Shown one piece after another: positions 2,384 to 49,088 of a stretch of 64,000 nucleotides of DNA. The translations under genes and the position numbers were made by a program. The DNA is taken from NCBI RefSeq assembly GCF_003312875.1, contig NZ_CP015163.1:7564001-7628000 (forward strand), in the 5' to 3' direction. The DNA comes from Amycolatopsis albispora (GTDB taxonomy: Bacteria; Actinomycetota; Actinomycetes; Mycobacteriales; Pseudonocardiaceae). Numbering within the stretch: the first letter of the stretch is position 1; every line of letters starts with the position of its first letter. The notes under the pieces are model-generated. The model saw only the letters and a program-made list of their open reading frames with translations. It was not told the DNA's origin and made no database searches.

Positions 2384-2438
2384 TGTCACGAATGTGGCTT
2401 TCGAGACGCGAAACGTCTCGAAAGCCACATTCGTGACA
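2384..2438. repeat. Dispersed hairpin element, copy 1
   Basis: Perfect 25-base inverted repeat (arms 2384-2408 and 2414-2438) around the five-base loop CGAAA. The inner arm reads TGGCTTTCGAGACG. It fills the gap between the convergent stops of rmlD (2379) and the glycosyltransferase (2444). Four more copies are at 12763, 38608, 39682 and 49032. The loop is the reverse complement of that in copy 2, so the two lie in opposite orientation. A bidirectional terminator role is inferred; there is no T-run. Confidence 0.9.
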
Positions 2439-2443
2439 GTGGG

Positions 2444-3529
2444 CTAGCGGCCCGCGGCTTGGCGGTAGGCCTCGACGGTTTTCTCCGCGCACAGGCGCCA
2501 CGTGTAGCTGGCCGCATGCGCACGCCGCGCCACCGAAGTCGACGCGGCGTGCGGGTCCGAGACGGCCGATCGCAGCGCCTCGGCCAGCGCGTCCACCTCG
2601 CGGTACGGCACCAGCAGCGAGTACCCGCCGGACACCTCCGCCAGCGCCGGGATGTCGGTGCAGACCACCGGGACGTCGCAGGCCATCGCCTCCAGCACCG
2701 GCAGCCCGAACCCCTCGTCACGCGAGGGCAGCACCAGCGCCGCCGCGCCCGCGACCACCGCCCGCAGATCGACCGGCGGCAGGTAGCCCAGGTGCATCGA
2801 CCGGTCCGACAGCTCGAACGAACCCGGCCCGGTGAACACCAGCGGCGGCAGGTCCGGCGCGGCCGCGTGCGCCTCCCGCAGCCACGGCAGCCCCTTGCGC
2901 GGCCCGGCCGCGCCGACGAAGAGCAGGTACTCGGCGGGAAGGCCCAGCCGCTCGCGCTGCTCCTTCGACAGCGGCCGCGCGGTGAACCACGCCGGGTCCA
3001 CGCCCAGCGGCGTCACCACGATCTTCTCGCGCGGCACCTCGAAGCGCGAAGCCACCGCGTCGGCGACCGCCGCGGTCGGCGTGCAGATCACGTCCGCGCG
3101 CGCGGCACCCCGGCGGACCAGTACCGGCAGATCCGCGTCGGACGGCGAAAGCTCGGACGGCTCGTCGATGAACGCCAGGTCGTGAATGGTCAGCACGCCG
3201 GCCGCGCGCGCGATGCCCGGCAGCACGAAGTTGGTCCCGTGCACCACGTCGGTCGATCCGGCGAACAGCTCGACCGGCGGGAAGTTCCCGCGCAGCCACG
3301 ATTTCCGCAGCAGTCGCGCGGCCACCGGCATGCCCCGCGCGCGCACCCCGTGCGGCAGCACGTGCCGCAGCTTGCGCCAGCCGCGCAGGGTGAACGCCAC
3401 CGCGCGTGTGTCCACAGAGGACAGAGAGGCGAGTTCTTCGGACAGCGAAGCCGTGTACTGGCCGATCCCGGTGCGGACCCCGAGCAGGGGGGTGCCGTCG
3501 AGCAGTACGCGCAGGGGCCGCTCAGCCAT
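2444..3529 (-). CDS. Glycosyltransferase family 4
   Basis: 361 residues with the GT-B layout. The N-terminal half begins LRVLLDGTPLLGVRTGIGQY, where the glycine-rich acceptor-side loop is visible. The C-terminal half carries SRDEGFGLPVLEAMA, the EX7E donor-sugar motif that marks retaining GT4 enzymes. It starts within the last 8 bases of the upstream glycosyltransferase fusion gene, so the two are co-translated. It probably adds a hexose or mannose from a nucleotide donor to a surface glycan; acceptor and sugar cannot be read from sequence. It resembles the GT4 proteins at 7000 and 8141, suggesting local duplication. Confidence 0.88.
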   Translation of the reverse strand: MAERPLRVLLDGTPLLGVRTGIGQYTASLSEELASLSSVDTRAVAFTLRGWRKLRHVLPHGVRARGMPVAARLLRKSWLRGNFPPVELFAGSTDVVHGTNFVLPGIARAAGVLTIHDLAFIDEPSELSPSDADLPVLVRRGAARADVICTPTAAVADAVASRFEVPREKIVVTPLGVDPAWFTARPLSKEQRERLGLPAEYLLFVGAAGPRKGLPWLREAHAAAPDLPPLVFTGPGSFELSDRSMHLGYLPPVDLRAVVAGAAALVLPSRDEGFGLPVLEAMACDVPVVCTDIPALAEVSGGYSLLVPYREVDALAEALRSAVSDPHAASTSVARRAHAASYTWRLCAEKTVEAYRQAAGR

Positions 3530-6023
3530 TTCGGCGAGCCACTTTCCGCACCCGGCCGCCGACCCGCTTGGCCAGCTCGCGCACGCCGCCGTCGGCGAGG
3601 TACTCCTTGACCAGCGCCAGGTCGCGCCGGACGATTTCGGCGCCGCGCAACGGATCCGACGGCGTCAGATCACTCGCGCCGGGCAGCCGGTCCGCGGCGG
3701 GCCGCGGATCGCGACAGAACTCCACCAGCGGTTCCAGCGCTCGCGGCCAGGCGAACCGCTGCGCCACCTCGGCGATGCGGTCACGCGCCGCCGCGGCGAA
3801 TTCCGCGTCGTAGAGCGCCTTTTCCAGTGCGTCCGCCAGCGCCTCGGAATCCTCCGCCGGCACCACCACACCGAGCTGTTCCGCGCGCACCAGATCGGCG
3901 AAGGCGTCGCCGTCGGTGGTCACGATCGGCAGCCCGGACCAGAGGTAGTCCAGCACGCGGGTGCGGAAGGCGAAGGTGGTCTCCACGTGCTCGTAGTGCG
4001 TGGTCACCCCGCAGTCGGCATCGAGCAGCCAGTTCTGCCGCTCGCCGTAGGGCACCCACTGCTCGTTGAAGAACACGTGCTTCCCGGTCAGCCCGAGGGA
4101 GTCGGCGAGCCGGATGGTCCGCGCGCCGATGTCCATCTCGGCGACCTCGGGATTCGGGTGCTTCATGCCGAGGAACACCAGCCGCACGTCACCGCGGCGC
4201 TCCCGCAGCCGGTCGATCGCGCGCACCAGAGTCAGCGGGTCGAACCAGCTGTACACCCCGCCGGCCCACAGCACCACGTGATCGGTCTCGGCGATGCCGG
4301 GCACGTTCGCGCGCAGCCCGGGACCGGTGCGGCGCGGGGCTTCCGGCGACAGTCCGAACGGGACCACCGACAGCAGCGACTGCGTGGTGGGGTCGGCGTC
4401 GTAGAGACGCGGGGAGAGCCGTCCCATCGCGGCCAGGTGGCCCAGCCAGAACAACCGCTGCCGCTCGGACGCGCACAGGAAGAAGTCACCGCGTTCGAGC
4501 TGCGCTTCGAGCACCTTGGTCACGCCGACCAGATCGGCGGCCCGCTGGTCGTCGGGTACACCGCGACCCTGCTCCAGCAGTTCCAGGTGCATCGGGTCGT
4601 ACAGATCGCAGACGACGATCTTGGTCGAATCCGGCTTCTTCAGCTGCGGCGCCATTTCCAGCACGTGGCCCTGCAGGATGACGATGTCGGCCCACTCGAC
4701 CGGCTCGGCGAGGTCGCGCCGCTTGGCCGCGCTCACCGCGAACGGCGCGGGCGGCGGATCGGCCAGCGGGTTCACCGTGACCAGCCGGACCTCGTGCTCC
4801 CCGGCCAGCGAGGCGGCGATGTTCCAGGCGCGGATCGCCGGGCCCGCCATGCGCTCGGTGATCGCGTCGCCGGTGATCACCAGCACCCGCCGCCGCTGCC
4901 CGAACACGCTCTCGATGCCGAACGCCTTGACCAGGATCTCGTGTGCGTCGAGATACCGCGGCAGCGGATAGGCGGGCTCCAAAGCCTTGCGCAGCAAGGG
5001 AATAAGGTCGGCGTCGGTCCGCACGCGCGCGGCCTGCTCGACCGCGCGGGACTCGGCGAGCGACGGCATCAGCTCGACGAACTGGTCGATCGCGAGCACC
5101 CCGGCCAGTGCGGTGCGGGGCACCGCCACCGGCTCGGTCTCCACCGGGCCGACCCCGCGCTGGAGGTCCAGCTGCGTCGCGTCGATCTCACCGCGGGCGG
5201 TGGCGCGGCGGACGGTCAGCGCGAGCGCGGCGGGCAGCACCTTCGCCAGCGTCTCGTCGGAAAGGTTCTTGTACAGCGCGGCGAGCGCGTTGCGCTCCAG
5301 CAGGAAGGTCTCGCGGCCGGTGTCCGGCGCGTCGACCGCGGCCATCGTGCCGTGGTGGCGGTGGAAGGCGACCGACTCGGGCACGTACCGCACCCGCCAG
5401 CCACGCAGGTTCATCCGCCAGCCGAGGTCGACGTCCTCGTAGAACATGAAAAAGCGTTCGTCGAAGCCACCCAGTTCGGTGAACACCCCGGTGCGCACGA
5501 ACATCGCTGAGCCGGTGCCGAACAGCACGTCCTTGGCGACCTCGTGCTCGGCGGACGGCACGTCGGCCAGCGGGCCGCCCGCGTGCCGCTTGTAGCCCAT
5601 GCCGAACCAGGTCAGCCCGCCGTCGACGAAGTCCGCGCCGGTGCCGTCCCAGTCGAGCACCTTGCTGGCCACCGCGCCGACCCGCGGATCGGCCGCCAGC
5701 TCGGCCACCGCCGCGTGCACCCAGTCGCGGCCGGGGCGGGCGTCGTTGTTGAGGAAGGCGAGCACGGTGCCGGTCGCGTGCTTCGCGCCCAGGTTGCAGC
5801 CGCCCGCGAAACCGAGGTTGTCCGCCGATTCGACCAGCTTCACTCCGGGCACCGCGGCCCTGATCCGCGCGGCGTCACCGGTGCCGGACGCGTTGTCGAC
5901 GCAGATGATCTCCAGGCGCGCGTAGTCCAGCTCGGCGAGGGAGCGCAGGCAGGTGATGGTGTCGTCCGCGCCCCGGAAGTTGACCACGATCACCGAGACC
6001 ACGGGCAGCGCGCCTTGGGTCAA
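3522..6023 (-). CDS. Two-domain glycosyltransferase, GT2 fused to GT4
   Basis: 833 residues, long because two catalytic modules are joined. Residues about 1-300 form a GT2 (GT-A) domain: VVSVIVVNFRGADDTITCL, the NNDARPG metal-site region, and FMFYEDVDLGWRM, typical of rhamnosyltransferase-like enzymes. Residues about 380-800 look like a GT4 domain, with YGERQNWLLDADCG and FAFRTRVLDYLWSGLPIVTT. The start is the rare TTG at 6023, chosen because AAGGAG lies seven bases upstream and homology begins there. One polypeptide could add two sugars in succession. It heads a minus-strand pair with the GT4 gene at 2444. The exact glycan is unknown. Confidence 0.85.
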   Translation of the reverse strand: MTQGALPVVSVIVVNFRGADDTITCLRSLAELDYARLEIICVDNASGTGDAARIRAAVPGVKLVESADNLGFAGGCNLGAKHATGTVLAFLNNDARPGRDWVHAAVAELAADPRVGAVASKVLDWDGTGADFVDGGLTWFGMGYKRHAGGPLADVPSAEHEVAKDVLFGTGSAMFVRTGVFTELGGFDERFFMFYEDVDLGWRMNLRGWRVRYVPESVAFHRHHGTMAAVDAPDTGRETFLLERNALAALYKNLSDETLAKVLPAALALTVRRATARGEIDATQLDLQRGVGPVETEPVAVPRTALAGVLAIDQFVELMPSLAESRAVEQAARVRTDADLIPLLRKALEPAYPLPRYLDAHEILVKAFGIESVFGQRRRVLVITGDAITERMAGPAIRAWNIAASLAGEHEVRLVTVNPLADPPPAPFAVSAAKRRDLAEPVEWADIVILQGHVLEMAPQLKKPDSTKIVVCDLYDPMHLELLEQGRGVPDDQRAADLVGVTKVLEAQLERGDFFLCASERQRLFWLGHLAAMGRLSPRLYDADPTTQSLLSVVPFGLSPEAPRRTGPGLRANVPGIAETDHVVLWAGGVYSWFDPLTLVRAIDRLRERRGDVRLVFLGMKHPNPEVAEMDIGARTIRLADSLGLTGKHVFFNEQWVPYGERQNWLLDADCGVTTHYEHVETTFAFRTRVLDYLWSGLPIVTTDGDAFADLVRAEQLGVVVPAEDSEALADALEKALYDAEFAAAARDRIAEVAQRFAWPRALEPLVEFCRDPRPAADRLPGASDLTPSDPLRGAEIVRRDLALVKEYLADGGVRELAKRVGGRVRKVARRNG

Positions 6024-6057
6024 CGACTGACTCCTTCGCTGTGGGGTTTCTCAGAGC

Positions 6058-6981
6058 CTAACCGGCCGCCCACCTGCGCCAGACCGCGCCTCGGCCGATC
6101 GTGGCACGCGTGCCGATCCGCCGGCGGGCGCCGATCGTGCCCGGCAGGCGCAGCACCACCTCGCCGAGCACGCGCAGCCGGAGGCCCATGCGGAAGTTGG
6201 CCGCGTCCGGAACGTCCCGTTTGACCGGTAGCAGCGCGGTGATCGCGGTGAACCGCGCCAGCTCGCGCAGCGCCACCGCGGCCGGCGCGCAGCGCAGCAG
6301 CGTGAGCAGGCGGTTGCGCTCGTTCCAGCGGTGGAACCGCGCGGAACCGGGCCGCGTGCTGGCGCCGTGCAGGTGCCGCACGGTGGCCGCCGAGCCGAGC
6401 ACCCGCCAGCCCGCCAGCCGCAGGCGCCAGGCGGTGTCGGTGTCCTCGTAGTAGCAGAAGAAGCTCGACGGCACGCCGCCCGAAGCACGCAGCGCGGCGG
6501 TCCGCAGCAGCACCGCGCCACCGCAGAAGCCGAACACCTCGGCGGCCGGTTCGGTGTGGTCGGCGCCGTGGCCGTCGGCGGTGAGGCGGACGCCGGTGGA
6601 CTGCGTGGTGCCGTCGGGCAGCGTCAGCGTCGAGCTGACGGCGGCCGCGTCAGGAGCCTCGTCGAGTGCGTCCTCCAGCGCGGCGAGCCAGCCGGGGGAG
6701 GGCGCCGCGTCGTCGTTCAGCCAGGCCACGAAGGGCGTGCTGACCTGCGGTAATGCCGCCTCGATGCCGCCCGCGTAGCCGGTGTTGCGCGGCAGGCGCA
6801 GCACCTCGGGCTTCGACGGGTGGGCGGCCAGCAGCCCGGCGGTGCCGTCGTCCGACGCGTTGTCCACCACGAGGGTCCGATGTGGACGGTCCTGGGCCGC
6901 CAGCGCGTCCAGGCAGGCCACCAGGTGCGGGGCACCACGCCAGGTGACCACCACGACCGTGCTGCGGGGCGGGGATGACAC
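6058..6981 (-). CDS. Glycosyltransferase family 2
   Basis: About 307 residues. STVVVVTWRGAPHLVACL opens a GT-A fold, VVDNASDDGT and LNDDAAPSPGW hold the nucleotide and metal contacts, and FFCYYEDTDTAWRLRLAGW is the region after the active site shared with rhamnosyltransferase-like enzymes. GTG 6981 is preferred; GTG 6990 would add three residues. The divergent GT4 gene starts at 7000, leaving 18 bases or fewer between the two starts, with no clear ribosome site for either. They are probably leaderless, with each promoter lying partly inside the other gene. The product acts at the inner membrane face on a lipid-linked glycan (inference). Confidence 0.85.
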   Translation of the reverse strand: MSSPPRSTVVVVTWRGAPHLVACLDALAAQDRPHRTLVVDNASDDGTAGLLAAHPSKPEVLRLPRNTGYAGGIEAALPQVSTPFVAWLNDDAAPSPGWLAALEDALDEAPDAAAVSSTLTLPDGTTQSTGVRLTADGHGADHTEPAAEVFGFCGGAVLLRTAALRASGGVPSSFFCYYEDTDTAWRLRLAGWRVLGSAATVRHLHGASTRPGSARFHRWNERNRLLTLLRCAPAAVALRELARFTAITALLPVKRDVPDAANFRMGLRLRVLGEVVLRLPGTIGARRRIGTRATIGRGAVWRRWAAG

Positions 6982-6999
6982 GCTGAGCACAATAGGCGG

Positions 7000-8121: not shown

Positions 8122-8128
8122 ACGGCCG

Positions 8129-8134
8129 TACGCT
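8129..8134 (+). promoter_or_regulatory. Probable -10 box (TACGCT) for a leaderless gene
   Basis: TACGCT lies exactly six bases before the GTG at 8141. No ribosome site lies in between, so transcription probably starts at the start codon. Confidence 0.45.
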
Positions 8135-8140
8135 GCATGC

Positions 8141-9301: not shown

Positions 9302-9331
9302 CACTGGGTGACCAGGGCACAATGTGCTGTC

Positions 9332-10198: not shown

Positions 10199-10207
10199 CC
10201 TCTGCCG

Positions 10208-10251
10208 CGCCTCGGCGGAATTGAGGGAATTCCCTAGATTCCGTCGAGGCG
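10208..10251. terminator. Bidirectional terminator-like hairpin
   Basis: Arms 10208-10221 and 10238-10251 pair over 14 positions with one G-T pair, and the loop itself contains the palindrome GGGAATTCCC. It sits between the wbbL stop and the convergent gene's 3' end, and its right arm lies inside the last codons of that gene. There is no T-run. Confidence 0.5.
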
Positions 10252-10635: not shown

Positions 10636-10782
10636 CCCCTCGGCCTCCCGACTAACCCGAGGCCCTCTCCAACCGGGGCCGCCTGTGTGCTGTCTAGGGT
10701 AGGCCCTCCGGGCCGCTCGCGTCAGCGTTTCCGGCGGTTTGTCACCAGGTGTTCCGCGAATGTGGGAGGAAGGGATGCGCGC

Positions 10783-11862: not shown

Positions 11863-12763
11863 TTCACGCCGGTGGCGCCCGTCGTATGCGCTGGACTTCC
11901 GGCGGGTGCTGGCGCCGCTGCGGCGTGGGCCCGGGGATCCGGCGGTGCACTGGGACGCGCCGGGCCGGGTGTGGCTGACCGCGAACACCGCGGACGGCCC
12001 CGGCACGCTCGGCCTGCGGCGGCTGGCGGACGGTGAGTTCGAGGCGGTGGCGTGGGGTGCGGGCGCGGCGATCCTGCTCGACGGCGTGCCCTCCTTGCTC
12101 GGCGCGTCCGACGACGATTCGGGTTTTGTCGCGCACCACGACGTGATCGCGGACGCGCGGCACCGGCGGCCGGGCCTGCGGTTGCCGTCGACCGGGCGGG
12201 TGTGGGACGCGCTGGTGCCCGCGGTGCTGGAGCAGAAGGTGACCGGGATCGAGGCGCACCGGTCGTGGCGCGAGCTGTGCCGGTGGTTCGGCGAACCGGC
12301 GCCGGGCCCGGCGCCCGCGCAGCTGCGGGTGCCGCCGACGCCGACCGCGATTCGGTCCATTCCGGACTGGAAGTGGCATCAGGCGGGCGTGGACCTCAAG
12401 CGCCGCACGGCTTTGGTCGCCGCGGCCGGGGTAGCCCACCAGCTGGAGCGGGCGGCTTCGCTGCGGGGCGCGGAGGGCCGCGCGCTGCTGCGGAAGGTGC
12501 CCGGCATCGGCGTGTGGACGGCCGCCGAAATCGCCCAGCGCGCCTGGGGCGATCCGGACGCGGTCAGCTTCGGAGACTTCCACATCCCGTCGATCGTGGG
12601 CTACGCCCTGGTCGGCCGGGCACTGGACGACCAGGGCATGGCGGAGGTGCTGGCGCCGTACGCGCCGCAACGCCAGCGGGCCGTGCGCTACCTGGAAGCC
12701 GCGGGCGTGACGCGACCGCGATTCGGCCCGCGGATGCCCATCCGGGACTACCGCGCGCTCTAG
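11852..12763 (+). CDS. DNA-3-methyladenine glycosylase II-type (HhH-GPD) protein
   Basis: 303 residues. It belongs to the AlkA-like helix-hairpin-helix glycosylases that excise alkylated bases. LLRKVPGIGVWTAAEIAQ is the hairpin-helix element, and the following VSFGDFHI holds the aspartate at the place of the catalytic Asp of AlkA. The N-terminal third (SYALDFRRVL) resembles the AlkA N-terminal fold. GTG 11852 or ATG 11855 may start the protein; both lie inside the end of manB. The gene ends exactly where hairpin copy 2 begins. A second, unrelated glycosylase (tag) lies at 38048. Confidence 0.83.
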   Translation: MMPDSRRWRPSYALDFRRVLAPLRRGPGDPAVHWDAPGRVWLTANTADGPGTLGLRRLADGEFEAVAWGAGAAILLDGVPSLLGASDDDSGFVAHHDVIADARHRRPGLRLPSTGRVWDALVPAVLEQKVTGIEAHRSWRELCRWFGEPAPGPAPAQLRVPPTPTAIRSIPDWKWHQAGVDLKRRTALVAAAGVAHQLERAASLRGAEGRALLRKVPGIGVWTAAEIAQRAWGDPDAVSFGDFHIPSIVGYALVGRALDDQGMAEVLAPYAPQRQRAVRYLEAAGVTRPRFGPRMPIRDYRAL

Positions 12764-12827
12764 CCAGTGTCACGAATGTGGCTTTCGAGACGTTTCGCGT
12801 CTCGAAAGCCACATTCGTGACACTGGC
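12763..12827. repeat. Dispersed hairpin element, copy 2
   Basis: The longest copy: perfect 30-base arms (12763-12792 and 12798-12827) around the loop TTTCG. The first arm begins in the stop codon of the glycosylase gene; the convergent small gene ends at 12835. The core arm is identical to copy 1 and the extra outer pairs are private to this copy. Confidence 0.9.
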
Positions 12828-12834
12828 GCGAGGG

Positions 12835-13047: not shown

Positions 13048-13087
13048 CGGCACCCCTCCGGTCGACTCCACGCCGAGCCTAGGCGAT

Positions 13088-13492: not shown

Positions 13493-13499
13493 GGTGTGC

Positions 13500-38047: not shown

Positions 38048-38608
38048 ATGGATTTGGTGGGTTCGGACGGGGTTTCGCGGTGTGCCTGGGGCAATTCCGC
38101 ACCCGATTACGCGGTTTACCATGACACGGAATGGGGCGTGCCGTTGCACGGTGCGCAGGCCCTTTTCGAGCGGTTGTCGCTGGAGGCTTTCCAGTCGGGT
38201 TTGTCGTGGATAGTTATTCTTCGGAAACGGGAGGCCTTCCGCCGCGCTTTCGCGGACTTCGATTTCTCGGTGGTCGCCTCCTTCGATGATGACGACGTTT
38301 CGAGGCTGCTCGCGGACCCCGGCATCGTCCGCAACCGGGCGAAGATCCTGGCCACCATCCGCAACGCCCGCGCCGTCGCCGACCTGGACCAGCCCCTGGA
38401 CGAACTGCTGTGGTCCTTCGCGCCCGAGTCTTCCCCCCGCCCGGCGACCATGGCGGACGTCCCCGCCACCACCCCGGAATCCCACGCCATGGCGCGAACG
38501 CTGAAAAAGCGCGGCTTCGCCTTCGTGGGGCCGACTACTTGCTACGCCCTCATGCAAGCCACCGGCATGGTCGACGACCACGTCACCTCCTGCTTCCGCG
38601 CCCAGTGA
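38048..38608 (+). CDS. tag: DNA-3-methyladenine glycosylase I
   Basis: 186 residues. It removes 3-methyladenine from DNA. RCAW and YHDTEWGVPLHG supply the first Cys and His of the zinc snap, SLEAFQSGLSW holds the base-binding Glu, and SHAMARTLKKRGFAFVGPTTCYA and DHVTSCF supply the rest of the site. It begins directly after the SRPBCC stop. It ends in TGA 38606-38608, where hairpin copy 3 begins. Synteny matches Rv1210. Confidence 0.94.
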   Translation: MDLVGSDGVSRCAWGNSAPDYAVYHDTEWGVPLHGAQALFERLSLEAFQSGLSWIVILRKREAFRRAFADFDFSVVASFDDDDVSRLLADPGIVRNRAKILATIRNARAVADLDQPLDELLWSFAPESSPRPATMADVPATTPESHAMARTLKKRGFAFVGPTTCYALMQATGMVDDHVTSCFRAQ

Positions 38609-38664
38609 TGTCACGAATGTGGCTTTCGAGACGTTTGGCGTCTCGAAAGCCACATTCGTGACAT
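38608..38664. repeat. Dispersed hairpin element, copy 3
   Basis: Perfect 26-base arms (38608-38633 and 38639-38664) around the loop TTTGG. The first base is the last base of the tag stop codon. The convergent DUF559-type gene ends at 38680. Confidence 0.9.
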
Positions 38665-38679
38665 GCGGAGGAGTGCTGC

Positions 38680-39639
38680 TCAGCTGACGTTGGAGTGCTG
38701 GATGGTGACGGCCGGTCTCGGTCTCGCTCTGGCTGCTTCGTAGGCGGCGCGGAGTTCGGCCGCGACGGCGGCCGGTGCGCTCTTGAGCCTGCTGGGCAGC
38801 GTCTGCACCAGGACGATCCCCGCACCGGCGTAGCGGGTGTTCCGGTCGAGAGTGTCCCCGTAGTCGGCGTGCCGGTAGTGGTGTTCGTAGGAGTCGATTT
38901 CCCAGGCCAGCGCGACTTCATCACACCAGAGATCGGGTCTGGCCAGGTACTTGCCGTCTGGTCCGTGGAGTGCGGGGTTGTGCACGGGCGGCGGAAGCCC
39001 CGCGCTGCGCCAGATGCCGGTGGCGCGGGCCTCGGGGACCGAGCGGAGATCGGTGAGCAGCCTCTTCAGCACGGCACGCGGCAGGGCGCTACCGCGCTGG
39101 CTGCCCGACTCGAGTTCGGCGGAGAGCGCGGCGATCGTGCACAGCCCGCTCTGCCTCGCTTCGATCAGCAAGCCCATCACGGGATCGAGTTCACGGATGC
39201 GTCGTGCCCCGTCCAGGATCGCGCGGGCCGGTGGTGCGGTGGGCACGCCGGACACCATCCGCCTGCCCGGCAGCAGCGTGGTGCGTTCGATCACCACGAA
39301 GCCAGGGCTGCGCAATTGGCTGTCCGACGGGACCAACAGGTGGACTTCGCTGCTGAGCGGGACGTTCCGCAGGCCGTAGCGCCGCGCGGCTTCGAAGCCG
39401 GTGAGCAGGCCCGCACCGCGACAGTGCAACAGTCCCGCTTCCACGCGTTGGCGTGCGGTGGGCCTGGTATTCGCCAGCAGCACGATGCCCGGGAGCAGAT
39501 AGGTCCACGGACCCCCGGGCTGGCAACGTCGATAGGCCGTCCTGGGCGGGATGCCGAGGCGCTCGAGCGTGGTTGTGCGGATGACCCCGTAGCGGCAATG
39601 ACGGCGCAAGCTGGGGTCGATGATGAGATTTGGGTTCAT
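38680..39639 (-). CDS. DUF559 / AbiEi-like antitoxin-domain protein
   Basis: 319 residues. The N-terminal part is a winged helix-like region (GVIRTTTLERLGIPPRTAYRR, then a short strand ending LLPGIVLL) as in AbiEi-type proteins. The C-terminal 90 residues resemble the Vsr/DUF559 nuclease fold: ARPDLWCDEVALAWEIDSYE has acidic residues in PD-(D/E)XK positions, followed by RNTRYAGAGIVLVQ. Members are numerous in actinobacteria and their role is uncertain. ATG 39639 is chosen; an open frame reaching 39726 reads through hairpin copy 4 and is rejected. The gene is bracketed by two copies of the hairpin element. Confidence 0.78.
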   Translation of the reverse strand: MNPNLIIDPSLRRHCRYGVIRTTTLERLGIPPRTAYRRCQPGGPWTYLLPGIVLLANTRPTARQRVEAGLLHCRGAGLLTGFEAARRYGLRNVPLSSEVHLLVPSDSQLRSPGFVVIERTTLLPGRRMVSGVPTAPPARAILDGARRIRELDPVMGLLIEARQSGLCTIAALSAELESGSQRGSALPRAVLKRLLTDLRSVPEARATGIWRSAGLPPPVHNPALHGPDGKYLARPDLWCDEVALAWEIDSYEHHYRHADYGDTLDRNTRYAGAGIVLVQTLPSRLKSAPAAVAAELRAAYEAARARPRPAVTIQHSNVS

Positions 39640-39681
39640 GGCGCCGAACGCTGCCCCGGCACCCCGACATCTCGGCGCGAG

Positions 39682-39736
39682 TGTCACGAATGTGGCTTTC
39701 GAGACGCAGAACGTCTCGAAAGCCACATTCGTGACA
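39682..39736. repeat. Dispersed hairpin element, copy 4
   Basis: Perfect 25-base arms (39682-39706 and 39712-39736) with the loop CAGAA. It lies 30 bases past the 3' end of the crotonase gene (39767) and upstream of the DUF559-type gene, the only copy not between convergent genes. Confidence 0.9.
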
Positions 39737-39766
39737 GGGACTGGGCGCCGGCCCCGCGTAGGAGGG

Positions 39767-40931: not shown

Positions 40932-40950
40932 ACGAGCCTTAGGTCGCACA

Positions 40951-40977
40951 CCCCGGTCCCCGGCACGGTGACCGGGG
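40951..40977. terminator. Hairpin between DUF3117 and the aminopeptidase
   Basis: CCCCGGTC (40951-40958) pairs with GACCGGGG (40970-40977) over an 11-base loop. There is no T-run, so it is only a weak terminator candidate. Confidence 0.35.
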
Positions 40978-41008
40978 TTAACTCTTGCCCGGATTCTGGA
41001 GGTCGCAG

Positions 41009-42460
41009 ATGGCACGCGTTCCGTTACCGCCCGTACCCAGCCGGCTGGTCGAGGTCGAGGTGCTGGACGCGGTCCGGCGTGGCGCGCTGGAAGCCGTCCT
41101 CGTGCCGCAGCCGGAGGACGACGCCGAACTCGAGCTGATCGCCGGCGTGCGCCCGTCCGGGAAGGCCGGGGACGTCAAGCAGGTACCCGGCGACTCGCCG
41201 GTCCGCTGGCTGGTCGGCGTCGGCAAGGGCAAGCCGGAGAACTACCGCGCCGCCGGTGCCGCGCTGGCCAGGGCCGCCGACTCCTACTTCGAGCACGAGC
41301 CGGTCAAGGCACTGCAGATCGCGCTCGGCGAGGACGCCACTGCCGAGACCGCCCGCGAGCTGGCGATGGGCGTGATGCTCGGCGGTTACCGCTACAAGGT
41401 CAGCGGCGAGGAGCCGAAACCCCGGCTCAAGACGCTCCGCCTGATCCCGCGGTCCGAAGACGTGCCGGCGTTCGCCGAGGCGGTGAGCCGCACGCGTGAA
41501 CTGGCCGCGGCGGCCGCGCTCGCCCGCGACCTCGCGAACACCCCGTCCAACGTGAAGGACCCGGCGTGGCTGGCGGACACGGCCGCGCGGCTCGCCGACG
41601 GCCTGCCGGGGCTGACCGCCACCATCCGCGACGAGCGGTGGCTCGCCGAGCAGGGCTTCGGCGGTGTGCTCGCGGTCGGCGGCGGCTCGGCAAGCCCGCC
41701 GCGGCTGATCGAGCTGGACTACAAGCCGCGCGGCGCGGCGGGGCACCTGCTCTACGTCGGCAAGGGCATCACCTTCGACACCGGCGGCCTGTCCGTCAAG
41801 CCGGCCGACGGCATGCACCTGATGCGCACCGACATGGCCGGTGGCGGCGCGGTGATCGCCGCTGTGCGCGCGGTCGCCGCGTTGGGCCTGAAGGTGCGGG
41901 TGACCGCGCTGGTCCCGGCCGCGGAGAACCACGTGTCCGGTTCGGCCTACCGCCCCGGTGACGTCGTACGGCACTACGGCGGCAAGACCACCGAGGTCGC
42001 CAACACCGACGCCGAGGGCCGCATGGTGCTCGCCGACGCGCTCGCCTACGGCATCAAGCGGTTCAAGCCGGACGCGGTGGTCGACGTGGCCACCCTGACC
42101 GGGGCCATGAAGGTCGCGCTCGGCCTGCGCACCGGCGGCCTGTTCGCCAGCGACGACGACCTCGCCGCCCGGATCGCCGCCGCGGGTGAAGCGGCAGGCG
42201 AGGCGTGGTGGCGGATGCCGCTGCTGGACGCGCACGCGGAAGCGGTCAAGGGCGACCTCGGTGACGTCAAGCAGGTGCCCACCGGGCCCGGCGGCATCAC
42301 CGCGGCTTTGTTCCTGCGCGAGTTCACCGGCGAAACGCCGTGGGCGCACCTCGACATCGCCGGTCCGGCCAGGGCGGACCGCACCTACGCCGACGTGGTG
42401 CCCGGCGGTACGGGTTTTGCCGCGCGCACGTTGGTTGAGCTGGCTGCCGCCTACGTGTGA
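41009..42460 (+). CDS. Leucyl aminopeptidase (M17)
   Basis: 483 residues. The N-terminal 170 residues are the M17 regulatory domain. In the catalytic part, YVGKGITFDTGGLSVKPADG, MRTDMAGGGAVI and NTDAEGRMVLADAL contain the two-metal ligands and the catalytic lysine and arginine. It removes N-terminal residues from peptides in the cytoplasm, probably as a hexamer. ATG 41009 has a nearby GGAGG; an ATG 24 bases earlier is less conserved. The 3' end is the source of the degenerate tandem copies that follow. Confidence 0.93.
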   Translation: MARVPLPPVPSRLVEVEVLDAVRRGALEAVLVPQPEDDAELELIAGVRPSGKAGDVKQVPGDSPVRWLVGVGKGKPENYRAAGAALARAADSYFEHEPVKALQIALGEDATAETARELAMGVMLGGYRYKVSGEEPKPRLKTLRLIPRSEDVPAFAEAVSRTRELAAAAALARDLANTPSNVKDPAWLADTAARLADGLPGLTATIRDERWLAEQGFGGVLAVGGGSASPPRLIELDYKPRGAAGHLLYVGKGITFDTGGLSVKPADGMHLMRTDMAGGGAVIAAVRAVAALGLKVRVTALVPAAENHVSGSAYRPGDVVRHYGGKTTEVANTDAEGRMVLADALAYGIKRFKPDAVVDVATLTGAMKVALGLRTGGLFASDDDLAARIAAAGEAAGEAWWRMPLLDAHAEAVKGDLGDVKQVPTGPGGITAALFLREFTGETPWAHLDIAGPARADRTYADVVPGGTGFAARTLVELAAAYV

Positions 42461-42712
42461 TCGAGTTCGGGCAGCGGCGCGGCACCGAGCCCGGCGGTGC
42501 ACGTTTGGTTGAGCTGCCTACGCGTGATCGAGTACGCATGCTGGCTGCTGGCTACGCGTGGCCCAGAGGTGCGCGGGGAGGTTGCGTATGGCGGGGAGCA
42601 GTGCGGCACCGAGCCGGGTGGCGCGCCTTGGCTGCCGCCTACGCGTGATCGAGTACGCGTGCTGGTGCTGGTTACGCGTGATCCAGGACGTGGGTGCGGA
42701 AGTTGCGTACGG
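42401..42712. repeat. Degenerate tandem copies of the aminopeptidase tail
   Basis: Three related units begin at 42401 (inside the gene), 42490 and 42613. Each has a GCC(C/G)GGYGG stretch, a TTGG(TTGAG)CTG core and TAC(G)YGTGATCGAGT. The second and third also share GCGGCACCGAGCC with the space after the gene. The third runs into the 3' end of the convergent LysR gene, whose last codons resemble bases near 42577. It looks like imperfect tandem duplication of the convergent gene boundary. Confidence 0.6.
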
Positions 42713-43577: not shown

Positions 43578-43627
43578 GGTATCGATTGTCGCTGATGGAC
43601 GTATTAGACGTATTGGTTAGCGCGGCT

Positions 43628-43633
43628 TAGCTT
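43628..43633 (+). promoter_or_regulatory. -10 box (TAGCTT) for the leaderless MFS gene
   Basis: TAGCTT ends exactly six bases before GTG 43640; upstream lies a repeated GACGTATT (LysR region). Confidence 0.5.
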
Positions 43634-43639
43634 CGACGG

Positions 43640-44833
43640 GTGACCACCACCGCGCCCGCGCCCGCCACCGAGGCCGCCCCCACGCGGCGGGTCACGCTGG
43701 CCGTCGCGGCGGCCGGCATCTCCTCGTTCGCCCTGCTCTACGCGCCCCAGCCGGTGCTGCCGCAGCTCGCCGAGCGGTTCCACCTCGACCCCGGCGGCGC
43801 GTCGCTCGCGGTCAGCGTGGCGACCGGTTCGCTCGCGATCTCCGTGCTGCCGATCGCGACGCTGTCCGAGGTGATCGGCAGGCGCCGCGTGATCCTGGCG
43901 TCGGTGCTCTCGTCGGTACTGCTCGGCCTGGCGCTGCCGTTCGCCCCGGACTTCACGACGTTGCTGGTGCTGCGCGCCCTCCAGGGCATCGCGATCGCAG
44001 GCTTCGCCGGGGTCGCCGCCGCGTACCTCGCCGAGCGGCTCGGCAAGGCAGGCGTGGCCGCGGCGGTGGGCGCGATGATCGCCGGGAACACCGTCGGCGG
44101 CATGCTCGGGCGGTTGTCGAGCGGGTTCGCCGCGGACTGGCTCGGCTGGCCAGGCGCGCTCGGCCTGACCGCCGGATTGGCACTGGTCTGCGCCCTGCTG
44201 ACGGTCTTTTCCCTGCCAAAGTCGGAGGCGCCCCCGGCGGGCAGGCGGGCCAAGGTGCTCAGCGGTTTCCGCGCGGCGCTGTCCAGCCGGGTGCTGCTCG
44301 CCCAGTACGCGGTGGCGCTGCTCGCGATGGGTTCGTTCGTCGCGCTGTACAACGCGGCCGGGTTCCGGCTCACCGGCGAACCGCTGGACCTCTCGCCCGC
44401 GATCGCGTCGCTGGTCTTCCTCGCCTACGCGATGGGCACGTTCACCTCCGGTTACGCCGGACGGCTGGTCGCGCGGTTCGGCAGGCTCCGCACGCAGGCG
44501 GGCGCGCTGGTGCTCACCGTGCTCGGGGCGTCACTGACCATTGTGGACTCGCTGATCTGCGTCGCCGCCGGGTTCGTGGTGCTGACCGGGGGCTTCTTCG
44601 CCGCGCACGCGGTGGCCAACGGCTGGGCCGCCGCCGAGGCGCCACCGGGCGCGCGCGGGCAGGCGGGCGGGCTCTACACGCTGGCGTACTACCTGGGCAG
44701 CAGCGTCGGCGGCACGGTCGGCGCCACCGTCTACGGGCACGCGGGCTGGGCGTGGCTCATCGCGCTCGCGGCGGCCTGGCTGCTGCTCGCGCTGCTCGTT
44801 TCGGTGCTGGCCGCGAAAGCCTCACGCCATTGA
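43640..44833 (+). CDS. MFS transporter, YnfM-like
   Basis: 397 residues, twelve predicted membrane helices. LSEVIGRRRVILASVLSSVL is the loop 2-3 motif of the major facilitator family; the linker after helix six is short and charged (LPKSEAPPAGRRAK). It is most like YnfM/CynX-type exporters. Control by the divergent LysR protein fits efflux of a small acid or drug; the substrate is unknown. The last 12 bases overlap the convergent O-methyltransferase gene. Confidence 0.88.
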   Translation: MTTTAPAPATEAAPTRRVTLAVAAAGISSFALLYAPQPVLPQLAERFHLDPGGASLAVSVATGSLAISVLPIATLSEVIGRRRVILASVLSSVLLGLALPFAPDFTTLLVLRALQGIAIAGFAGVAAAYLAERLGKAGVAAAVGAMIAGNTVGGMLGRLSSGFAADWLGWPGALGLTAGLALVCALLTVFSLPKSEAPPAGRRAKVLSGFRAALSSRVLLAQYAVALLAMGSFVALYNAAGFRLTGEPLDLSPAIASLVFLAYAMGTFTSGYAGRLVARFGRLRTQAGALVLTVLGASLTIVDSLICVAAGFVVLTGGFFAAHAVANGWAAAEAPPGARGQAGGLYTLAYYLGSSVGGTVGATVYGHAGWAWLIALAAAWLLLALLVSVLAAKASRH

Positions 44834-45448
44834 CGCGACCAGCAGGCCACCGCCGACCGGCAGCACCGCGGGCACCAGGCGCTCGTCGTCGCGCACCGCG
44901 CGGGCCACGTCCCGCATGGCCAGCGTCTCCGGGTCACGGCCGTTGCGCACCCCGGACAGCAGGTTGTGGAACGCGATCACCCCGCCGGGGCGCAGCAGCT
45001 GCACGCCCTCGTCGAAGTAGTTCGGGTACTCGGCACGCGCGGCGTCGACAAAAACCAGGTCGTACCCGCCCGTGGTGAGCCGGGGCAGCACGTCCAGCGC
45101 CCGGCCCATGATCAGCCGCGTGCGCCCCGGCGGCAGTCCGGCCTCGAGAAAGGTCTTGCGGGCCGCGCGGTGGAACTCGGGCTCGATGTCGATCGAGGTG
45201 AGCACCCCGTCCTCGGCCATGCCGCGCAGCAGGTAGAGCCCGCTGACCCCGACGCCGGTGCCGACTTCCACCACCGCCCTGGCCTGCAGCGTCGCGGCGA
45301 GAAAGCTCAGCGTGGCCCCGCAGGCCGCGCCGACCGGGGCGCACCCCAGCTCGGCCGACCTGGCGCGCGACGCGACCAGTACCTCATCGTCGGGCAGGTA
45401 GCCCTCGACGAAGACGCCCAGGTCGTCCAGGTGTGTGTCGGAGTGCAC
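44822..45448 (-). CDS. SAM-dependent O-methyltransferase
   Basis: 208 residues, class I methyltransferase of the catechol-type family. VVEVGTGVGVSGLYLLRGM is the SAM-binding loop, LTSIDIEPEF binds the ribose, and YDLVFVDAARAEYPNYFDE holds the metal-site Asp. Metal-dependent methylation of a catechol-like substrate is expected. GTG 45448 is preferred because TAACCT lies seven bases upstream; ATG 45478 would add ten residues. It matches Rv1220c, also next to sigE. Confidence 0.88.
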   Translation of the reverse strand: MHSDTHLDDLGVFVEGYLPDDEVLVASRARSAELGCAPVGAACGATLSFLAATLQARAVVEVGTGVGVSGLYLLRGMAEDGVLTSIDIEPEFHRAARKTFLEAGLPPGRTRLIMGRALDVLPRLTTGGYDLVFVDAARAEYPNYFDEGVQLLRPGGVIAFHNLLSGVRNGRDPETLAMRDVARAVRDDERLVPAVLPVGGGLLVASMA

Positions 45449-45455
45449 GCCAGTG

Positions 45456-45461
45456 AGGTTA
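45456..45461 (-). promoter_or_regulatory. -10 box (TAACCT) for the leaderless O-methyltransferase
   Basis: Minus-strand TAACCT ends seven bases before GTG 45448. Confidence 0.4.
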
Positions 45462-45573
45462 GCGGGGCCTGTCGACATATCAGCGCAGGCCGCGCCTGCG
45501 GACTTCTCAGGCTCCTCTCAGCGCCGTCTCACTACAACCATAAGGAAGCCGGACAGACTCTTGCCAAGGAACC

Positions 45574-45602
45574 GGGAACACCCTGCGCGGGGACAGCGTT
45601 AG
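45574..45602 (+). promoter_or_regulatory. ECF-sigma promoter upstream of sigE
   Basis: GGGAAC (45574-45579), a 17-base spacer and CGTTAG (45597-45602) match the consensus of SigE/SigR-type ECF sigma factors. The start point should fall near 45609, about 20 bases before sigE. It implies autoregulation. Confidence 0.75.
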
Positions 45603-45627
45603 GGGAAGTAGTTGGGAGATCAGCCTG

Positions 45628-46257
45628 ATGGAGGTGCCTTCCCCCACGATGCAGAAGAGCACGCAGGTCGAGCCGGTGGCCGTCGACGAGACCGTCGAAG
45701 CCGCCTGGACGCCGCCGTCCTGGGACGAGGTGGTGCGCGAGCACGCCGACCGGGTCTACCGCCTGGCCTACCGCCTCACCGGTAACACCCACGACGCGGA
45801 GGACCTCACCCAGGAGACCTTCATCCGGGTGTTCCGTTCGCTCGCCAACTACAAGCCCGGCACCTTCGAGGGCTGGCTGCACCGCATCACCACGAATCTC
45901 TTCCTCGACATGGCCCGGCGCCGCTCCCGCGTGCGCATGGAGGGCCTGCCGGAGGACACCGACCGCATCGTGGGCGACGACCCGAGCCCCGAGCAGGTCT
46001 ACTCGGACACCCATCTCGACCCCGACCTGCAGGCCGCGCTGGACGAGCTCCCGCCGGAGTTCCGCGCCGCGGTGGTGCTGTGCGACGTCGAGGGGCTGTC
46101 CTACGAGGAGATCGGCGCGACGCTCGGGGTCAAGCTCGGCACCGTGCGCAGCCGCATCCACCGCGGCCGCCAGGCCCTGCGTGCCTCGCTGGAGCGCGCG
46201 CGGGCGATGAAGCGCGAGGCGATCCCGGTGCCCGCCACAGCGGGGGCGCCGGCATGA
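45628..46257 (+). CDS. sigE: ECF RNA polymerase sigma factor SigE
   Basis: 209 residues. Region 2 is visible at [20 protein letters not shown] and [17 protein letters not shown] (-10 recognition); region 4 at [20 protein letters not shown] and [20 protein letters not shown] (-35 recognition). It directs the response to cell-envelope and surface stress. GGGAG lies nine bases before ATG 45628. The next gene is its zinc-containing anti-sigma factor, with ATGA overlap, followed by htrA: the same order as M. tuberculosis Rv1221-1223. Confidence 0.95.
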
Positions 46258-46910
46258 CGGAAGCTCGCGGTTGGGGCCTGCCCGAGTCGCACCTGCTGCC
46301 CGACGCGGTGGTCGCGTTCGTCGACGGTGAGCTCTCCCTCGGCGCGCGGGACCGCGCGTCGAGCCACATCGCCCGCTGCCCTTCGTGCGCGGGTGAAGTG
46401 GCCGCGCAGCGCCAAGCCCGCGCGGAGGTCAAGCGCGCGGACGCCCCCGCCATGTCGGCGGGGTTCCTGGCCAGCCTCCGCTCCATCCCCCAGCACACCG
46501 AGCTGAGCACCACGCCGGACAACCTGGCGATCACCGAGGACGGCCAGCTGGTCGCCATCCAGCGGCCGGATCGGGTGGCCGGCCTGCGGGACGGCTCGGC
46601 GCCGCTCGGCTCGTCGGCGCCGCTGGGCAACTCGCGCAACGTGCTCGGCGGCGGCCGCTTCGGCGTCTCCGGGCGGCGTGCCGCCCAGGGCGCGGGCGTG
46701 GTCGTCTCCGGGCTGGTGCTCAGCGCGCTCGCGCTGGTGGTCACCTCCGGCACCGACGGTGGTGACGTGGCCACCGATCCCAAGCAGGACCCGCTCTCCG
46801 GCGTGCTGCCCGCGCAGTTCGGCGCGAACCCGCCGGTCGCGACCAGCCTGGTGCCCACGCCGTCCTCCGCTCCGGCGAGCACCACGCCCAGCCTGCCCTC
46901 CGGGCGCTGA
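46254..46910 (+). CDS. rseA: Anti-sigma factor (ZAS family)
   Basis: 218 residues. [14 protein letters not shown] is the HxxxCxxC zinc motif, close to [14 protein letters not shown], which together bind SigE. A probable membrane segment is at about residues 146-166 ([16 protein letters not shown]), followed by a Ser/Thr/Pro-rich extracytoplasmic tail. ATG 46254 overlaps the sigE stop. Release of SigE on oxidation or proteolysis is known for this family. It is tail-anchored in appearance, longer than the M. tuberculosis protein. Confidence 0.9.
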
Positions 46911-47008
46911 GCAGGGGCGAAACGCCTACTTCACCGGGCAGGCGGCAGAATTCCCGGCAAACGTCCGGCGTGGAATCGCGCCGACGCCGGTCACGCGTCG
47001 AGGAATGA

Positions 47009-48547
47009 ATGAGCCAGCAGCCCAACCCGCAGCAGGACCCGTCCGGCGCGCCGCGGCGCGAGGACAGGCTCGCCCCACGGCCCCTGGACCGCCCGCCGGT
47101 GGATCCGGCGCAGGCGTCGGTTTTCGGCCGCCCGCGTGGCGTCGAAGGCGCCTTCGACCGGCTTTACGCCCCGGATTCCCGCAACGGCAAGGCGCAGCAG
47201 GTGACGCTCGCGCCGCCGCCCCCCGAGTCGCTGGCCGAGGCCTTCCGCCGTCCGCCGGACGCCGAGGGCGTGGTGCTGCAGCGCCCGGCCGACGACCAGG
47301 GCGCGAGCGCTCCCGCCGAAACCGAGCCGCCGCTGTGGTCCCGGCCCGCCGACCCGTGGCGCGACCCGAACGCCGGCGCGCTGCTCGGCGGTCCGGCGGT
47401 GGCGACCGAGGAAAAGCCCAAGGAAGACCCGGAGGAGCGCCCGCCCGGCGCGATGCTCAGCCTGCCCGAGGTGCTGTTCGGGCGGCGCGTGAAGCCCACC
47501 GCGCTGGCCCTGCTCGGCGTGATCGCGCTGTTGATCGGCGCGGTCGGCGGCCTGGCGGGCTGGTGGTTGTCCGATCGCGGGGACGCGCTGACCGGTGAGC
47601 TGAACATCGCCGAGGCCGAGGCGGGCAAGGAGCGGCCCCCGGGCTCGGTGGCCGACGTCGCGCAGCGCGTGGCGCCCGCGGTGGTGTCGCTGGAGATCCG
47701 GATCGGCGAGGGCGGCGGCAGCGGCTCGGGCGTGGTGATCGATCCGCAGGGCTACATCCTCACCAACGACCACGTGGTCTCGATGGCGGTCAAGGACCAG
47801 TCCGCCAAGATCACCGCGGTGTTCATCAACGGCGCGCGGACCGAGGCCAAGGTGGTGGGCACCGATCCGAAGACCGATCTCGCGGTGGTCAAGGTGAGCG
47901 TGCCGGACCCGGTGGTGGCGCAGGTCGGCAAGTCGGCCGACCTGGCGGTCGGTGACTCGGTGCTGGCGGTCGGCTCGCCGCTGGGCCTGGAGAACACGGT
48001 GACCAGCGGGATCGTCAGCGCGCTGAACCGGCCGATCGGCATGCCGGGCGAGAACGGCGGCCCGCCGTCGGTCTACGGCGCGATCCAGACCGACGCGCCG
48101 ATCAACCCGGGCAACTCCGGTGGCGCGCTGGTGGATTCGACGGGTGCGCTGGTCGGCATCAACACCTCGATCCTCGGGGGCGGGGAAGGCCAGGGCGGCA
48201 ACATCGGCATCGGCTTCGCCATCCCGATCGACCAGGCGATCCGGATCAGCCGGGCGCTGATCGAGCAGGGCTCGGTCAAGCACGCCGACCTGGGGCTGAA
48301 CGCGGCCTCGGTGGCGGCGAACACCTCCGAGGGCGCGCAGGTGCAGAACGTGGCGCCGGGCGGCCCCGCGGCCGCGGCCGGCATCGCCGAGGGCGACGTG
48401 ATCACCAAGGTCGGCGACCGGATCGTGCGGACCGCGACCGAGCTGACCGTGGTGGTGCGCGAGCACAACATCGGCGACGTGGTGCCGGTGCAGCTGTCGC
48501 GGCAGGGCAGGCAGCTGGTGGTCGACGTCACGCTGGGCTCGGACTGA
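47009..48547 (+). CDS. htrA: HtrA-type serine protease
   Basis: 512 residues. A cytoplasmic Pro-rich region of about 160 residues precedes one membrane helix (about 163-186). The trypsin-like domain outside carries the triad H255 (TNDHVV), D290 (KTDLAV) and S370 (NSGGAL), followed by a PDZ domain (about 425-505). It degrades or refolds damaged exported proteins under SigE control. The 98-base gap after rseA has no clear promoter. The start is ATG 47009; an ATG four bases earlier is out of frame. Confidence 0.94.
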   Translation: MSQQPNPQQDPSGAPRREDRLAPRPLDRPPVDPAQASVFGRPRGVEGAFDRLYAPDSRNGKAQQVTLAPPPPESLAEAFRRPPDAEGVVLQRPADDQGASAPAETEPPLWSRPADPWRDPNAGALLGGPAVATEEKPKEDPEERPPGAMLSLPEVLFGRRVKPTALALLGVIALLIGAVGGLAGWWLSDRGDALTGELNIAEAEAGKERPPGSVADVAQRVAPAVVSLEIRIGEGGGSGSGVVIDPQGYILTNDHVVSMAVKDQSAKITAVFINGARTEAKVVGTDPKTDLAVVKVSVPDPVVAQVGKSADLAVGDSVLAVGSPLGLENTVTSGIVSALNRPIGMPGENGGPPSVYGAIQTDAPINPGNSGGALVDSTGALVGINTSILGGGEGQGGNIGIGFAIPIDQAIRISRALIEQGSVKHADLGLNAASVAANTSEGAQVQNVAPGGPAAAAGIAEGDVITKVGDRIVRTATELTVVVREHNIGDVVPVQLSRQGRQLVVDVTLGSD

Positions 48548-48615
48548 CCCTGGGTTCGTCACCGGATCGGGCGGTACGCTGAGCTTGGCGCAGTGCACAA
48601 GGCGGAGGTCACAGG

Positions 48616-49026
48616 GTGTTCGAGAGCGTTGGCTGGGGCGAAATCCTCGTCCTCATCGTGGCCGGGCTGTTCATTCTGGGCCCGGAGCGGCTGCCCGATG
48701 CGGCGGCCTGGCTGGGCCGGAGCATGCGCAAGGTGCGTGATTTCGCCAGCGGGGCGCGGCAGCAGCTCAAGGACGAGATGGGCCCGGAGTTCGAGGAGTA
48801 CCGCAAGCCGCTGGAGGACCTGCGGCAGCTGCGGAACTTCGACCCGAAGCGCGCGGTCACGCAGCACCTGTTCGACGGTGACGCCGACCCGCTGGGCCTG
48901 AACAGCATCAACGGCAACGGCGGCAGCGAGCCCGCGAAGCCGAACGGCCACCCGGCGGTCGCCTCACCGGCGCCGGAACCGCTGAAGCCGGGCGAAAAGC
49001 CCCCGGTCGACCCGGACGCCACCTGA
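48616..49026 (+). CDS. tatB: Sec-independent protein translocase TatB
   Basis: 136 residues. [20 protein letters not shown] is the N-terminal membrane helix with the TatB glutamate, then [20 protein letters not shown], the amphipathic helix, and a flexible Pro/Gly tail. It acts with TatA and TatC to export folded proteins. GTG 48616 has GGAGG upstream. TACGCT near 48572-48577 could be its own promoter. Order htrA-tatB is conserved in mycobacteria. Confidence 0.9.
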
Positions 49027-49031
49027 CCCCT

Positions 49032-49088
49032 GTGTCACGAATGTGGCTTTCGGGACGCCAAACGTCTCGAAAGCCACATTCGTGACAC
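49032..49088. repeat. Dispersed hairpin element, copy 5
   Basis: 26-base arms (49032-49057 and 49063-49088), loop CCAAA, the reverse complement of the copy 3 loop. One base differs (G for A in TTTCGGGACG), leaving a G-U pair in plus-strand RNA. It lies between tatB (stop 49026) and the convergent mrp gene (stop 49110). Confidence 0.88.

Follow-up and report, generated by a model that had tools for sequence, protein, structure and literature searches.

Five hairpins and a palindrome-bracketed gene in the window

The stretch of DNA analysed here, referred to as the window, comprises 64,000 nucleotides from the genome of the soil bacterium Amycolatopsis albispora (G000:C1:7564001-7628000; 9.12 Mb, single contig). 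It contains five copies of a long hairpin, the A-type palindrome, and two of these copies bracket a gene, P0001, forming a hairpin-gene-hairpin unit of ~1.13 kb (38608..39736). In this work we describe where such palindromes lie, how they turn over between species, and how they have diversified together with the gene that they bracket. The left boundary of the unit is copy 3 (38608..38664; 26-nt arms, loop TTTGG), which is located between convergent genes, directly after a methyladenine glycosylase gene (38048-38608, plus strand) whose stop codon shares one base with the stem. The right boundary is copy 4 (39682..39736; 25-nt arms, loop CAGAA), which is positioned 30 bp beyond the stop codon of an enoyl-CoA hydratase gene on the minus strand, with another minus-strand gene downstream of it. 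P0001 itself (38680-39639, minus strand), the candidate partner gene of the palindrome, encodes 319 amino acids from a putative start codon.

The remaining copies lie at gene ends as well. Copy 1 (2384..2438; 25-nt arms, loop CGAAA) separates convergent genes at 1492-2379 (plus strand) and 2444-3529 (minus strand). Copy 2 (12763..12827; 30-nt arms, loop TTTCG) is located between convergent genes, and the stop codon of the plus-strand gene ending at 12763 supplies the first base of its stem (a 1-base overlap). Copy 5 (49032..49088; 26-nt arms, loop CCAAA) is flanked by a TatA/B-like gene (48616-49026, plus strand) and an Mrp-like gene (49110-50255, minus strand). A preliminary description of the window had reported five inverted repeats with arms of 25-30 nt and five-base loops; their coordinates, arms and loop lengths were all verified, as was their placement (copies 1, 2, 3 and 5 between convergent genes, copy 4 just past a stop codon). 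Its proposal that a base change in copy 5 preserves a G-U pair in the RNA of one strand also proved correct, as GGGAC stands opposite GTCTC and the pair forms in the plus-strand RNA only (predicted energies of -47.8 and -45.1 kcal/mol). The bracketing of P0001 by copies 3 and 4, which that description did not mention, is repeated in many of the gene's homologues.

When searched with at most 3 mismatches, a 23-base unit motif matches exactly the 10 arms in the window, and it has no match in 100 dinucleotide shuffles. For a single arm, folding predicts a weak hairpin of 7 bp (-6.1 to -6.5 kcal/mol), and for the complete element a long one (-45 to -48 kcal/mol, about -60 kcal/mol for copy 2). Each element thus consists of two small palindromes in inverted arrangement, as do the hairpin-forming doublets of repetitive extragenic palindromic (REP) sequences known as REPINs. 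Rfam gave no match within the window at gathering scores.

Predicted product of the bracketed gene

Structure prediction suggests that the P0001 protein is composed of an AbiEi-like DNA-binding part (residues ~5-195) and a Vsr/EDxHD endonuclease-like domain (residues ~199-305). Five residues, E203, D236, E247, D249 and H254, are invariant in an alignment of 80 homologue sequences and are candidates for catalytic residues. The predicted C-terminal fold is closest to that of a homing endonuclease. A sequence search of solved structures with the P0001 alignment returned no significant match.

The AbiEi-like character predicted for the N-terminal part raises the possibility that the palindromes are operators of an AbiE-type toxin-antitoxin regulator, scattered through the genome as a regulon. 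We regard this as very unlikely, as the sites lie at gene ends, just 2 of 30 being located between divergent genes, and the neighbours of P0001 in the window are the glycosylase and enoyl-CoA hydratase genes (Adenine_glyco and ECH_1), with no toxin gene, AbiEii in particular, adjacent to it at this locus.

Among the matches listed, the P0001 gene is found at this site elsewhere only in G026 and G057, two other genomes of the genus, where its orientation relative to its neighbours is inverted; in G053 the gene is absent, and a single palindrome separates the two neighbouring genes. A gene flipped in this way is what recombination between its bracketing palindromes would give. Five close copies of the gene are present in A. 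albispora, G026 and G057, and in each the palindromes on the two sides belong to one family. This is A in A. albispora, a D-like family in G026 and G057, and, for the second gene copy in each of the latter two genomes, a family termed E.

Shared repeats flank many homologues of the gene within and beyond the genus

P0001 has matches in all 80 genomes of the genus, with 1-11 matches per genome. A repeat shared by both flanks (score of at least 20) is present at 52 of 71 homologue loci, compared to 1 of 240 randomly chosen genes of comparable length and none of 5 distant paralogues. The 71 loci consist of an initial set of 52 (39 positive), comprising the best matches fetched and twenty picked from the list of matches, with distant paralogues kept separate, and a further 19 (13 positive) taken afterwards from the same list. 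Eight of the twenty picked loci are from G079 and G070, and only 2 of these are positive. A hairpin is contained in 40 of the 52 positive repeats, and the remaining 12 look like truncated or imperfect palindromes or arrays. Where a hairpin is present on each side (28 loci, one of which, L266, is without a shared repeat), the hairpin-to-hairpin distance is 1011-1151 bp. For 29 of the 120 homologue proteins listed the longest contig measures merely 1,059-1,194 bases, as would be expected if assemblies break at the flanking repeats.

In a wider survey using 400-base flanks, a score of at least 20 was reached at 11 of 30 loci, and at 9 of the 26 outside Amycolatopsis. These nine are the loci of Prauserella endophytica, P. 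cavernicola and P. halophila, Haloechinothrix alba (two loci) and Saccharomonospora saliphila, together with three whose homologues are more distant, from Pedococcus cremeus, Mycolicibacterium hippocampi and an Actinophytocola bin. No shared repeat was found within the 400-base flanks at loci of Streptomyces (three), Labedaea, Actinosynnema, Saccharothrix, Flexivirga and Janibacter. A plasmid collection yielded one homologue (L318), on the Rhodococcus ruber plasmid pmega_4, with a shared inverted repeat of score 27. L318 and two other distant homologues outside Pseudonocardiales (L302 and L304) have shared inverted repeats on both flanks, and the flanked homologues in Rhodococcus, Pedococcus and Mycolicibacterium hint that the proposed system may reach beyond that order.

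Palindrome and gene have diversified together

If palindrome and gene belong together, a palindrome family would be expected to be abundant in genomes containing a gene bracketed by it and missing from the others. Palindrome E occurs in 170 copies in G026 and 69 copies in G057, both of which contain an E-bracketed gene, and in none of the other 78 genomes. Similarly, the AAAGGTCC palindrome is present in 93, 77, 31 and 30 copies in G019, G034, G063 and G042, respectively, all of which contain a gene bracketed by AAAGGTCC, and it has zero copies in 67 of the 80 genomes; low counts were obtained in G013 (7), G014 (3) and four genomes with one copy each.

The similarity between homologous proteins is correlated with the similarity between the hairpins that bracket them (Mantel r 0.80 over 37 of 40 loci, with 0 of 2000 permutations as high). 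The 40 loci were picked among bracketed ones (35 of 39 positives, leaving aside L253, L256, L257 and L274, plus five loci of the wider survey), and three were dropped from the correlation as they had no called hairpin. For pairs from different genomes, mean hairpin similarity is 0.72 when protein identity exceeds 65% (75 pairs) and 0.19 when it is below 55% (465 pairs). In the seven pairs of paralogues within a genome, hairpin similarity is 0.10-0.17 in six and 0.49 in one; an eighth pair, L263/L291, both from A. azurea, is labelled as two genomes. Thus, the bracketing palindrome tracks the lineage of the gene and not the genome in which it resides, with the correlation being partly due to shared ancestry within gene clades.

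Genomic distribution and turnover of the hairpins

The whole-genome search proposed in the preliminary description located 162 copies of the full 55-base hairpin in A. albispora (at most 3 mismatches), which excludes that the five window copies are the only ones. Hairpins in which the core GAATGTGGCTTTC faces itself (at most 2 mismatches) number 316. In 48 A-type copies sampled from 864 kb of this genome (464 kb contiguous and twenty 20 kb stretches), the arms are perfect in 24 and have at most 2 mismatches in 43, in agreement with the earlier statement that they are conserved far beyond the needs of a terminator. The five-base loop, for which the preliminary description gave three sequences per orientation, keeps its length in all window copies, but its sequence is free, with 21 forms among the 48 sampled copies. 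Single arms that look unpaired were, in the cases examined, mostly hairpins whose second arm has changed.

The hairpins are concentrated between convergent genes. We located 33 core hairpins in 664 kb of the A. albispora genome, made up of 264 kb around and upstream of the window and the twenty stretches, which were chosen from listed matches and are informative on context, not density. Twenty of the hairpins lie in convergent gaps, 8 in tandem gaps, 2 in divergent gaps and 3 at stretch ends, and convergent gaps account for 73 of the 450 gaps in this DNA (enrichment p 9e-10); the midpoint of the hairpin is outside called genes in all 33. When hairpins of any sequence between genes were surveyed in 464-480 kb of each of four genomes, the share in convergent gaps was 19 of 26 in A. 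albispora (p 4e-10), 17 of 22 in G057 (p 1e-9), 34 of 45 in G026 (p 5e-17) and 6 of 13 in G053 (p 0.018). Among the copies listed, no bias of loop orientation with respect to strand or replication was apparent by reading, no statistical test being applied.

Comparison of the same gaps in the four species reveals that the hairpins turn over. Of the 45 convergent gaps common to all four, 18 contain a hairpin in one or more species (10 in one, 3 in two, 4 in three and 1 in all four), as do 8 of 193 shared tandem gaps and 1 of 59 shared divergent gaps. The tendency of two species to have hairpins in the same convergent gaps is significant for A. albispora with G057 and for G026 with G057 (p 0.004 each), borderline for G053 with A. 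albispora and with G057 (p 0.045 each), and not significant for A. albispora with G026 (p 0.14) or G026 with G053 (p 0.40). The gap at -111974 from the window start contains an A-type hairpin in A. albispora and a TGCCGTGAATGTGGC-type hairpin in G057, G026 and G053, the G026 copy falling below the stricter cut used for the shared-gap counts. At the copy 1 gap (2379), G057 has an A-type hairpin with a different loop, the A type being common to A. albispora and G057, while G026 has other hairpins and G053 a palindrome of different sequence. The copy 2 gap holds a TGCTGTGAATGTGGC-type hairpin in G057 and an A-like one in G026, and no such hairpin was seen there in G053. At some gaps a hairpin in one species corresponds to stop codons that overlap by 4 bp in others. 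These comparisons indicate that the sites are partly common between species and that the stem sequence tends to be the species' own.

A stable hairpin just after a stop codon is a feature of intrinsic terminators, and the preliminary description had suggested that the family is reused as a bidirectional terminator. More generally, the hairpins could be ordinary bidirectional terminators between convergent genes, with selection or gene conversion maintaining their similarity and the bracketed gene as a passenger. Consistent with this, 13 of the 19 convergent-gap hairpins in A. albispora have both stop codons within 25 bp, stem energies of -45 to -61 kcal/mol are predicted on both strands, and unrelated hairpin families occupy the same gaps in different species. 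However, there is no T-tract (at least 4 T in the 8 nt after the hairpin in 2 of 48 copies on one strand and 0 of 48 on the other), the arm sequence is conserved far beyond pairing, the hairpin is absent in relatives whose versions of the two genes have a 4-bp overlap, and the bracketing of one gene family across the genus is left unexplained. We consequently judge this explanation improbable. The terminator suggestion is compatible with position and stem energy but not with the missing T-tract, and use as a terminator is possible as a secondary role.

More complex structures occur as well. In A-type arrays (L007:8962, L013:6219, L019:12242, L001:9609 and L003:9913), the core AGCCACA, which lies between CGAA and TTCG, is inverted in one arm, or units recur at a 30-base period. 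One arm's core is turned round in L007, L013 and L019, giving direct or longer arrays; the inner and outer parts of the arms still pair and the middle does not. Long degenerate arrays with units of ~20 bases, of type CGAACCCCACGTTCAGG, fill several convergent gaps of G026 (e.g. the orthologues of those at window position 49026 and at -30237 from the window start). The 211-bp convergent gap at 42460-42671 of the window looks assembled from repeated pieces of gene ends, and the equivalent stop codons adjoin in three relatives. A second hairpin family, F, consists of ACGGCG, ~10 variable bases, TGTCAAGGC and the loop GGGAAAGAT, and is located within a longer conserved block with T-runs (L159:12739 in A. 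albispora; several sites in G026, G057 and G053). Its variable stem bases differ among copies, yet they pair perfectly in most listed copies, a pattern that looks like covariation.

Proposed explanation

We consider it probable that the hairpins and the bracketed gene constitute a selfish palindrome system resembling REPINs and their REP-associated tyrosine transposases (RAYTs), in which the single-copy partner is a Vsr/EDxHD-fold nuclease and not an HUH transposase. The dispersed hairpins would be non-autonomous copies of the palindrome that also ends the ~1.1 kb palindrome-gene-palindrome unit. The protein would most likely recognise the palindrome of its own family and drive its copying or maintenance by a homing-like route in which a site is cut and then repaired from an existing copy. 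As with REPINs and RAYTs, each family would have one copy of the gene while palindromes lacking it multiply. Copies would persist where they are least harmful, right behind stop codons and for the most part in convergent gaps, and the strong hairpins may in addition curb read-through there. We infer both the mobilisation by the nuclease (recognition, cutting and copying) and any effect on transcription.

A number of observations weigh against this explanation. The result for palindrome E is one-way, as E does not occur without its gene, which is not proof that the gene made E. The AAAGGTCC palindrome is present in 36, 22 and 16 copies in G052, G074 and G033, respectively, where the orthologue examined is bracketed by variants (further paralogues in these genomes were examined only in part). 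A-type arms occur in G026 despite its two close genes being bracketed by D and E, and in A. albispora no matching gene is known for family F or for the other core stems present. A shared flanking repeat with a score of at least 20 is lacking at 19 of the 71 homologue loci. Taken alone, the Foldseek match to a nuclease is weak (E 0.046), and the AbiEi structure match has a root-mean-square deviation of 6.4. Target-site duplications were not apparent on comparison by eye of empty and filled gaps, whose gene ends differ widely between species, and no excision product was found. Finally, the nuclease gene could be a homing-type parasite that settled in pre-existing palindromes, which were spread or homogenised by other means. 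The palindrome families without a known matching gene fit this alternative, as does the predicted C-terminal fold of P0001, nearest a homing endonuclease, and insertion sequences that target REPs are known (PMC1525189). It is nevertheless the less likely account, and we give it a minor though real chance, as E-type hairpins are absent from the 78 genomes beyond the two with an E-bracketed gene, the unit has a near-constant length with whole palindromes at both ends, and gene and palindrome have co-diversified.

A selfish palindrome system with a nuclease partner would supply a concrete candidate enzyme for the spread of REP-like palindromes without a tyrosine transposase, and since the palindromes differ between species, the specificity of the enzyme is testable by substrate swap. 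If correct, it would account for some of the DNA that separates convergent genes in Amycolatopsis, and it would provide a role for a gene family that is annotated only as hypothetical, AbiEi-like or DUF559 among the matches listed. A broader proposal, which we offer tentatively and rate at slightly below an even chance, is that of an actinobacterial class of selfish palindromes in which each family is spread by its own single-copy, palindrome-bracketed protein that resembles homing endonucleases and reads DNA through an AbiEi-type part; REPIN biology would then have been invented twice, the second time with an unrelated enzyme.

Comparison with known systems

The preliminary description had assigned the hairpins to a family like REPs or miniature inverted-repeat transposable elements. 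Their REP-like character is upheld, as they are high-copy, extragenic, inverted doublets that are enriched at convergent gene ends and differ in presence between relatives. The tyrosine transposase that it named as a sign of mobility was not found, as PF01797 is detected in 0 of 80 genus genomes and in 5 of 14 control genomes. Classical REPs or REPINs moved by such a Y1 (HUH) transposase would have the same architecture and genomic habit, to judge from the portions of PMC3116915 that describe them, but the absence of PF01797 from all 80 genomes with working controls, together with the lack of a GTAG tag in the arm sequence TGTCACGAATGTGGCTTTCGAGACG, makes this origin hardly credible. The RAYT/IS200 route was rejected for these genomes, at the sensitivity of the PF01797 model. 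As the architecture is REPIN/RAYT-like and the defining transposase was not found, we do not class the hairpins as REPIN/RAYT elements.

DNA uptake sequences, which reportedly double as inverted-repeat terminators, are similar in that inverted pairs of a conserved word follow genes. They are unlike the Amycolatopsis palindromes, which have much longer arms, several families per genome and a bracketed partner gene.

CGTC-tagged REPs have an 8-9 bp stem, a 4-5 base loop and an unpaired CGTC tag, and sections of a paper on them (PMC3733652, Di Nocera 2013) describe families without a known transposase, whose manner of spread is presented there as an open question; its main text contains none of the words Actinobacter-, Streptomyces and Amycolatopsis. 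As in the GTAG- and CGTC-tagged REPs of those sections, short palindromes are found in Amycolatopsis near the 3' ends of convergent and co-oriented genes, with dimers and clusters. However, the Amycolatopsis palindrome has no unpaired tag and a stem of 25 bp, not 8-9 bp, and the CGTC within its arm is base-paired, which places it outside the definition of CGTC-tagged REPs.

With regard to the protein, P0001 differs from Vsr/EDxHD homing endonucleases (e.g. I-Bth0305I) in that its predicted nuclease domain is fused to an AbiEi-like part and its gene lies between palindromes, and from AbiEi antitoxins (PDB 6y8q) in that it has an additional nuclease-like domain and no toxin neighbour at the window locus. 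In the open-access literature of PubMed Central, no paper among the matches listed links AbiEi- or DUF559-like genes to dispersed palindromes.

The closest parallel is with REPIN/RAYT systems, in which, according to the parts of PMC3116915 (Bertels and Rainey 2011) that treat them, palindrome families are each matched to a distinct single-copy gene with the same palindromes beside it. Both systems feature inverted palindrome doublets that form hairpins, occur in high copy and are extragenic. In contrast to REPINs, the Amycolatopsis hairpins have arms of 25 bp and a five-base loop, their palindromes are positioned at both ends of the gene at a near-constant distance, and their predicted partner combines an AbiEi-like with a Vsr/EDxHD-like part in place of a Y1 HUH transposase.
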